The notes beneath the pieces are model-generated. The model worked only from the letters and a program-made list of their open reading frames with translations, searched no databases and was not told the origin of the DNA. 64,000 nucleotides of DNA, taken from contig NZ_LT706985.1 in the NCBI RefSeq assembly GCF_900155645.1, positions 930,001 to 994,000 on the forward strand, written 5' to 3'. The position numbers and the translations under genes were made by a program. Origin of the DNA: Vaginimicrobium propionicum. GTDB lineage: Bacteria > Actinomycetota > Actinomycetes > Propionibacteriales > Propionibacteriaceae. Shown here in pieces: positions 30,199 through 63,150 of this stretch (positions are counted from its first letter, which is position 1; the number at the start of each line of letters is the position of its first letter).

Positions 30199-30228
30199 CT
30201 GCAAAAGTAACACCCGTATGTTACTTTT
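30199..30228 (+). promoter_or_regulatory. Promoter and autorepressor operator of the AbiE-type fusion
   Basis: Perfect 10-bp inverted repeat, AAAAGTAACA (30203-30212) and TGTTACTTTT (30219-30228), with a six-base spacer. The right arm contains TACTTT at -12 to -7 from the ATG, and CTGCAA (30199-30204) lies 17 bases before it as a -35 box. A protein bound to the palindrome would cover the whole core promoter. AbiEi-family antitoxins are known to repress their own promoters through inverted repeats. Confidence 0.7.
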
Positions 30229-30233
30229 GAAGC

Positions 30234-60735: not shown

Positions 60736-61002
60736 TTATAGATATTTGTAGACGTCGTCCAGGCTCAGCCCGAGCTTAATCATCATCGTTTGCAGGTGGT
60801 AAAGCAACTGGCTGATCTCTTCTGCAGCAGCAGCGTTACCCTCGTATTCGCTAGCCATCCACACTTCGGCGGCTTCTTCGACAATCTTCTTGCCGATAGC
60901 GTGAACTCCGGCATCTAGACGCTGGACAGTGCCCGAACCGGCTGGGCGAACTTCCGCAATTCGGGTTAACTCTGCAAATAACTGCTCAAAAGACTTACTC
61001 AC
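60736..61002 (-). CDS. hisE: Phosphoribosyl-ATP pyrophosphohydrolase
   Basis: Second step of histidine synthesis, an all-alpha pyrophosphohydrolase of 88 residues with the family pattern [14 protein letters not shown]...[17 protein letters not shown] 61002 is the likely start ([11 protein letters not shown] follows); a longer frame to 61050 reads into the ftsH promoter region. Divergent from ftsH. Confidence 0.93.
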
Positions 61003-61049
61003 GCCCAGAATCCTAGTGCACGAAACACAACTCGAAACTGTCCCCGCCA

Positions 61050-61080
61050 CCTCCTAAGATAGACGAAGCATCTTAGGAGG
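61050..61080 (+). promoter_or_regulatory. 11-bp inverted repeat overlapping the ftsH ribosome binding site
   Basis: Perfect arms CCTCCTAAGAT (61050-61060) and ATCTTAGGAGG (61070-61080) around nine bases. The right arm ends in AGGAGG, the ribosome binding site of ftsH, six bases before the ATG. The left arm contains TAAGAT, a possible -10 box. It could be an operator or an mRNA hairpin hiding the ribosome binding site. Confidence 0.65.
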
Positions 61081-61086
61081 ACCTTG

Positions 61087-63150
61087 ATGAGTGACCAGCG
61101 CACCCGTCGGTGGCAGGAAAGCCGCCGCACACCAGAGCGCGCAACCAGCGACGAACGGCTGCAAAGTAACCGTCCAAACGGTAAGGAGCCGCTTAATTCA
61201 CCGCGCCCCTGGCGCACTGAAGGTCTACCGAACCAGGGCGAAGGTAGAGCTAAAAAACCTAAACGCTGGGTGTTTTGGGTAGCCGCCGCTGCACTATTCG
61301 CAGTTATTTGGGGAGTTTTGAGTTGGCAAGACGCCCGCAACGCTCCCCCGACAATTGCTTATACAGAATTTATTTCCCAAGTCGCTGATGGCAATGTCAA
61401 GCAGATATACGCCAAAGGCGACACCATCCAGGGTGAACTGAAAAAGGCTGCCACTCTGCCACCTGCTGAGGGCGAAGAAAAACCAACCGGTAAAGATTAC
61501 ACCAAGTTCTCCACTGAAAGGCCTACCTTCGCAGCAGATGACTTGCTGAATGATCTAGATAAGACCGGCGCTGAGGTACGCGCTACTCCCGTCATTGATG
61601 AGCGTGGCCCGTGGATCAACCTGTTATCAACCATCCTCATGTGGGGTCTACTCATTGGTCTGGCCGTATGGCTGTTCAAGCGGGCGTCCAAAGCTGGCGG
61701 ACCCTTCGGGATGGGACGAGAAGTTAAACCAGTTGAACAATCGAAAGTAAGAGTCAATTTTTCTGATGTTGCTGGTATCGATGAGGTCGAGGAACAGGTT
61801 AACCAAATTGTTGACTTTCTAAAAGATCCGAACAAGTATGCCAAAGTTGGCGCCCGAGCCCCTAAGGGCGTGCTTCTAGAGGGGGCTCCTGGCACTGGCA
61901 AGACGCTGCTGGCCAGGGCAACAGCCGGCGAAGCAGATGTTCCATTCTTCAGCGCCTCCGCCAGCGAATTCATCGAGATGATTGTCGGCGTTGGTGCCCA
62001 ACGAGTACGACAGCTATTTGATGAGGCTAGAAAAGTCGCTCCGGCAATCATTTTCATCGATGAGATAGACGCTATTGGCCGCTCACGTGGCTCTGCAAGG
62101 GTTTCCGGCGGCAACGATGAGCGGGAACAAACGCTAAACCAGATTCTTACCGAGATGGATGGTTTCGACGGCACTGAGGGGGTAATCGTCATGGCCGCCA
62201 CAAACCGCTCTGACGTGCTTGACCCTGCCCTAACCCGTCCTGGACGATTTGATCGAGTCATCACAGTAAGCGCTCCCGACCAGAATGGGCGCGCCCAAAT
62301 TTTGAAAGTCCATACCCGCGATATCCCCTTAGCTGCTGACGTGGATCTCCAACAGATTGCTGCCACCACACCAGGCGCTACCGGCGCTGATTTAGCTAAC
62401 CTGGCCAACGAGGCAGCCATTTTGGCAGCTCGCCGCAGCGACAGTTTGGTTTACTTACGGGATTTCATGAACGCCTTGGAGCAAATCCAATTGGGTGTAG
62501 AACGCTCAGTCGTCATCCCAGAAGATGAGCGCCGCCGCACTGCTTTCCACGAAGGTGGGCACGCACTTTTGGGGATGCTGAGAAAAGGCGCTGACCCTGT
62601 TCGTAAGGTATCAATTATTCCGCGTGGGCAGGCTCTAGGTGTCACCTTGTCAACGCCAGATACTGACCGCTACGGCTATGACGAAGAATATTTGCGCGGG
62701 CGAATTATCGGAGCGTTGGGTGGTATGGCAGCCGAAGATGCTGTGTTCGGGGTCGTTACCACTGGCGCAGAATCTGACTTGCGGCAAGCCACCGCTATCG
62801 CTAGGCAGATGGTCGGCAAGTGGGGAATGTCTAAGAAGGTTGGCCCAATGACCGTCCTGTTAGACGATGCGGATCCCAGGTCTATCGGCATTTCGGAGCT
62901 AACTTTGGAAACTGTTGACGCCGAGGTGCGCCGCATAATCGCTGAATGCCAAGCCCAAGCCGTCCAGTTACTCAGGGAACACCGTAGTCAACTGGACGCT
63001 ATTGCTGACGCATTATTGGCTAAAGAGACCTTGGACGAGGATGAGGTATATCGGGTCGCAGGCATTGAGCGACCGCCTACTCACAATCTTCCTGACTCAT
63101 CGAACACACCTAGCCGCGCCGATTCGTCTGACTCTCCAGCGGCTAGCTGA
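61087..63150 (+). CDS. ftsH: ATP-dependent zinc metalloprotease FtsH
   Basis: Membrane-anchored AAA+ protease that removes damaged and regulatory proteins. About 687 residues: a basic N-terminal tail, a membrane helix near 65-80, a small extracytoplasmic domain, a second helix near 175-195, the AAA module ([25 protein letters not shown], second region of homology TRPGRFDR) and the protease with zinc site [12 protein letters not shown]. The C-terminus is Ser/Pro-rich. ATG 61087 has AGGAGG six bases upstream; the TTG just before it is too close. It overlaps convergent mshC by eight bases. Confidence 0.97.

Follow-up and report, generated by a model that had tools for sequence, protein, structure and literature searches.

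A lineage-private palindrome spanning the predicted -10 box and the ribosome binding site of ftsH in Vaginimicrobium propionicum: a possible operator

Introduction

When a perfect inverted repeat ends in the Shine-Dalgarno sequence of a gene, it may act in the mRNA as a hairpin over the ribosome binding site, it may act in the DNA as the binding site of a regulator, or it may have no role. This question is raised by a palindrome located just upstream of the protease gene ftsH of V. propionicum, a member of the Propionibacteriaceae with a genome of 2.01 Mb that lies near Propionimicrobium lymphophilum. A first-pass annotation of the locus had put forward both an RNA thermosensor and an operator. 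Here, the palindrome was analyzed within the window (the whole 64-kb stretch of DNA studied), in the complete genome and in related genomes.

Structure and Surroundings of the Palindrome

A perfect inverted repeat, CCTCCTAAGAT-N9-ATCTTAGGAGG, was present upstream of ftsH at 61050-61080 (Table 1). It had previously been extended to 61086, but positions 61081-61086 (ACCTTG) are merely the gap between the AGGAGG and the ATG. The arms of 11 bp and the nine-base spacer were otherwise as described, and the right arm does end in the AGGAGG of ftsH, with ATCTT as the remainder of this arm; the outer part of the left arm is CCTCC (61050-61054). The centers of the two half-sites are 20 bp apart, about two helical turns, and the dyad is centered near the predicted start point of transcription. 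A terminator was considered and discarded, as there is no T-run and a terminator search of the palindrome found none.

Table 1. Features of the hisE-ftsH intergenic region and its flanking genes (positions within the window).
Feature	Position	Strand	Remarks
hisE, divergent from ftsH	60736..61002	-	GTG start at 61002; PF01503 PRA-PH
hisE predicted -10 box TAGGAT	61010..61015	-	7 nt before the GTG; TAGGCT at the corresponding position in P. lymphophilum (L036) and L041
Possible -35 box TCGAAA	61032..61037	+	17 nt before the -10 box; weak, 4/6 to TTGACA
Left arm CCTCCTAAGAT	61050..61060	+	Sequence; only the TAAGAT portion kept in relatives
ftsH predicted -10 box TAAGAT	61055..61060	+	TAnnnT class, the -10 class of C. 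acnes; conserved across ftsH leaders
Spacer AGACGAAGC	61061..61069	+	9 nt; contains the predicted transcription start (~61066-61068, from the -10 position and spacing)
Right arm ATCTTAGGAGG	61070..61080	+	Sequence
Shine-Dalgarno AGGAGG	61075..61080	+	6 nt before the ATG at 61087; similar spacing in nearly all orthologs
ftsH	61087..63150	+	687 aa; domains FtsH_ext, AAA, AAA_lid_3, Peptidase_M41

The genes to the left of hisE were read by eye from their translations as hisG, infC, rplT, an rRNA methyltransferase gene and pheST, all on the minus strand, and an MshC/CysS-like gene, recognized in the same way, was also among the neighbors of ftsH. No regulator gene adjoining the palindrome was found among the neighboring ORFs (hisE, hisG, infC, rplT and the MshC/CysS-like gene). 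Since the -10 box of hisE stands so close to its GTG, this gene is probably leaderless and would not make use of the palindrome. A minus-strand hisE promoter built on the symmetric TAAGAT is possible, but it was set aside because the conserved hisE -10 box is nearer to the start of that gene.

The V. propionicum genome encodes a single type of FtsH, that of the gene studied here. This type was detected in 22 of 198 genomes of the family at E <= 1e-200. Other relatives carry an FtsH only about 50% identical to it, and some genomes, such as G025 (near P. lymphophilum), have both types.

The Promoter of ftsH

The first-pass annotation had suggested that the TAAGAT hexamer within the left arm could be a -10 box, and this suggestion was borne out by the comparison of ftsH leaders. 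A TAnnnT hexamer ending 22-27 nt before the start codon was present in 17 of the 24 leaders (V. propionicum and 23 others, non-redundant but related, and hence not independent), as against a mean of 1.8 and a maximum of 7 in 5,000 shuffles, and in only 0-4 leaders when the adjacent 6-nt windows were inspected. P. lymphophilum has TAAGAT-N26-ATG, a spacing identical to that of V. propionicum, without the palindrome. On the plus strand, TAAGAT is the sole TAnnnT between 60903 and 61060.

This pattern can be set beside the mapped promoters of Cutibacterium acnes, in which a TAnnnT -10 box centered near -9 was found at 79% of 1,106 transcription starts and a weak -35 box is usual (PMC3848588). A consensus scanner returned no sigma-70-type site in the region. 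As TAnnnT is conserved at a fixed distance in ftsH leaders, the TAAGAT of the left arm is the predicted -10 box of ftsH. Transcription should then begin at about 61066-61068, within the spacer; the normal mRNA would consequently lack the left arm, so the hairpin could not form in it. The same had been put forward in the first-pass annotation as its second alternative, and the comparison with relatives supports it, the start point itself being predicted. Taken jointly, the -10 box in the left arm, the start in the spacer and the absence of the hairpin from the normal mRNA are considered very probable.

Folding of the ftsH Leader

If the palindrome were transcribed whole, the Shine-Dalgarno sequence would be fully paired within a hairpin, as it is in RNA thermometers such as ROSE and FourU, and a thermosensor that would cover the ribosome site at low temperature and open on heat shock had been proposed on this basis. 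In silico folding at 37 °C gave an unpaired probability for AGGAGG of at most 0.010 for every tested RNA starting at or before 61050 vs. about 0.51 for starts at 61066-61068. For the full-length folds this value was still no higher than 0.012 at 42 °C and 0.015 at 60 °C; in the full hairpin it stayed below 0.03 throughout 42-70 °C, and the hairpin was mostly closed even at 90 °C. By nearest-neighbor energies, the ribosome site remained shut in silico up to 80-90 °C, far from the melting within the physiological heat-shock range that is proper to a thermometer. Unlike the stems of ROSE and FourU elements, that of ftsH is perfect and very stable, and its left arm lies in the promoter, outside the normal mRNA: with the predicted start in the spacer, the structure would be missing from the RNA that is translated.

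Furthermore, no thermometer family of Rfam matched the palindrome region, the sole match, to a lncRNA family of insects, being a chance one (E = 3). Relatives keep the ribosome binding site and retain the left arm only as the -10 hexamer, which is the pattern that the first-pass annotation had named as refuting its reading. Hence, the promoter position and the folding at 20-90 °C led to the rejection of this reading, which is regarded as extremely improbable.

Distribution of the Palindrome in the Genome and in Relatives

Among the genomes with this FtsH, those closest to V. propionicum are P. lymphophilum, whose protein is 76% identical, and Propionibacterium-like genomes. A purine-rich Shine-Dalgarno sequence was near universal in the 24 leaders, but neither the CCTCC of the left arm nor the ATCTT of the right one occurred in the ftsH leader of any relative compared. 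When the leaders were anchored on the Shine-Dalgarno sequence, at most 7 of 11 positions could pair in the other leaders, whereas in V. propionicum this register allows 10 of 11. A 6-bp inverted repeat lies between the -10 box and the Shine-Dalgarno sequence of P. lymphophilum; such a repeat is expected by chance in about 0.2 of 75-nt regions (own estimate), and no weight was given to it.

The search for further copies, which the first-pass annotation had recommended, returned nothing beyond the site itself, either in the genome or in relatives. With as many as 3 mismatches allowed, the window contained no second copy; no further full site was found in the whole genome (2,010,679 bases), in which the palindrome is unique. 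Its 16-bp core matched five other places of the genome, all with 3 mismatches, as compared with seven for a reversed control; these places did not exceed the control and gave no sign of a wider regulon in the genome. The core was not found with up to 1 mismatch in any other of 197 genomes of the family, and among 396 genomes of the phylum the full site, allowing 3 mismatches, occurred only in V. propionicum, whose genome alone represents the genus in the set compared. These comparisons suggest that the symmetry is private to the V. propionicum lineage, with a putative function.

In four distant orthologs (L013, L044, L046, and L049), a gene for a MarR-like regulator, recognized by eye, lies divergent from ftsH, and a short palindromic sequence covers the promoter. 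The FtsH type of these lineages may be a regulated one.

The relation to the CIRCE element of HrcA was also considered. Like CIRCE, the ftsH palindrome has perfect arms and a nine-nucleotide spacer and lies close to the promoter of a gene for proteostasis, but its arms are of 11 bp and their sequence is unrelated, the difference in sequence having been noted in the first-pass annotation. Five ordinary CIRCE-like sites (TTAGCACTC-N9-GAGTGCTAA, up to 3 mismatches) are present elsewhere in the genome and the ftsH palindrome is not among them; its identity with CIRCE was therefore rejected.

Chance Expectation and Other Repeats

The probability of a perfect repeat with arms of at least 11 bp and a spacer of 3-20 was calculated analytically, for this composition, as about 1.2e-4 per 75-nt start region, and 1 in 20,000 simulated start regions contained one. 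This corresponds to about 0.007 repeats expected by chance per window and about 0.2 per genome, with the numbers of starts (~58 and ~1,750, respectively) being estimates. When the -10 box and the Shine-Dalgarno sequence were held fixed and the rest of the leader was randomized, 17 of 400,000 leaders had 11-bp arms, and none of them had both elements inside the arms, a condition chosen post hoc.

In the window, three perfect repeats with arms of at least 11 bp were found vs. 0.07 expected under a first-order Markov model: the ftsH palindrome, a terminator-like hairpin of 20 bp and a repeat upstream of an AbiEii-domain gene. The background was counted on 464 kb of the genome, made up of the window and 20 further stretches of 20 kb each, and 30 such repeats were obtained, the majority of them intergenic and terminator-like. 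Three of the 30 lie directly at a gene start: the ftsH palindrome, a repeat before an ORF with an AbiEii domain, and one at an arsR-phosphatase/ars locus (contig stretch L138). A possible fourth, L138:15117, is separated by about 35 nt from a crudely predicted ORF start.

The repeat at the AbiEii ORF, CAAAAGTAACA-N6-TGTTACTTTTG, has perfect 11-bp arms and occupies positions 30202-30229 of the window, immediately before the ATG (30234) of a 509-aa ORF. The AbiEii toxin domain (PF08843) is in the C-terminal half and the N-terminal part looks AbiEi-like by eye; judging from its sequence, this ORF may encode a type IV toxin-antitoxin fusion, and the repeat may be its operator. At L138:1314-1369, an inverted repeat with perfect 25-bp arms and a 6-nt loop separates an ArsR-phosphatase fusion gene from arsD/arsA-like genes and is probably an ArsR operator. 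Additionally, an inverted repeat with perfect 20-bp arms and a 3-nt loop lies between two plus-strand genes at 1262-1304 of the window and is terminator-like, and one and the same perfect 11-bp repeat, AAATCGAGGTT...AACCTCGATTT with a 15-nt spacer, occurs at L142:16490-16526 and L142:16686-16722, 196 bp apart and with identical near flanks.

Discussion

The reading placed first, ahead of chance and then of a lock on transcripts, is that the palindrome would be a lineage-specific operator bound by an unlinked dimeric regulator, although this preference is a tentative one that falls short of an even chance. RNA polymerase would recognize the TAAGAT of the left arm as its -10 box and begin the RNA in the spacer. 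The resulting leader, about 20 nt long, would have the Shine-Dalgarno sequence and lack the left arm, so that no hairpin would form in the normal mRNA. The symmetry would act in the double-stranded DNA as two 11-bp half-sites around a center close to the start point, where a bound dimeric regulator could block the polymerase at the -10 box and the start. The postulated regulator would be encoded elsewhere and its site would be private to the lineage. This arrangement resembles the operators of dimeric repressors of the ArsR, MarR, and TetR types, with a perfect dyad and half-sites about two turns apart over the -10 box and the start. It is favored because a perfect repeat is improbable at a start and because the other two start-site repeats of at least 11 bp in the 464 kb sit at loci often controlled by local operators.

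The operator proposed in the first-pass annotation has accordingly stood in part: a dyad over the -10 box and the start point is compatible with it, but there is no second site in the genome, no relative with the site and no adjoining regulator gene. An adjacent regulator gene or further sites in the genome would be expected of such an operator, and here the palindrome is single and the regulator only postulated, although an unlinked regulator with a single site would still be compatible with the data. Literature searches turned up nothing on operators of ftsH in this group. Moreover, the arms are largely built of the -10 box and the Shine-Dalgarno sequence, which would be present regardless of any symmetry. 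The same facts fit a coincidence, in which the bases next to the two conserved elements came to match in one lineage and the palindrome has no role. The closest relatives, like the others, keep both elements and not the symmetry, the genome has no further copies, and the scanning of many windows would surface some start-site repeats of this kind, of which chance allows about 0.2 per genome. Nevertheless, arms enclosing both elements were rarer still in the simulated leaders, by the post hoc count given above, and the other clear start-site repeats of this length found in the sampled part of the genome appear to be functional. Coincidence is therefore held to be a serious possibility, ranked after the operator.

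An RNA role of another kind would be a lock on outside transcripts. RNAs entering from upstream would carry both arms and bury the Shine-Dalgarno sequence in a very stable hairpin, and only RNAs from the own promoter would be translated. IS10 and IS50 guard their transposase in a comparable manner. In phage T4, the gene e promoter is located in the 5' strand of such a structure, and translation of the long transcripts is about 100-fold lower (PMC3014915); the I-TevI leader has a similar arrangement, with an operator that likewise overlaps its promoter (PMC2988022). Sequence comparison places the ftsH elements in exactly this architecture, with the predicted -10 box in the 5' arm, the start in the loop and the Shine-Dalgarno sequence in the 3' arm, and with a hairpin possible only in longer transcripts; the difference in AGGAGG accessibility between long and short RNAs at 37 °C counts in favor of a lock. 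However, ftsH is a chromosomal housekeeping gene with a sigma-A-type -10 box and not a T4 late promoter, and the T4 gene e hairpin is common to related phages whereas the ftsH palindrome is private and its left arm is not conserved. A hypothetical outside transcript would have to be antisense to hisE/hisG, as the upstream genes are oppositely oriented, and FtsH is no obvious product to shield from such transcripts. A lock is consequently judged unlikely, and the fuller claim, that an actinobacterial chromosomal housekeeping protease gene would carry a start-site discriminator like that of T4 late genes, leaving its own transcripts translatable and all outside ones locked, is viewed as less likely again.

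The case of ftsH calls for caution, in that the position of the promoter should be examined before a hairpin predicted over a ribosome site is named a riboregulator; here, the left arm would serve as the -10 box. If the symmetry is functional, it would mean a lineage-specific control of ftsH in V. propionicum, either through a postulated repressor or through a T4-like lock on outside transcripts.
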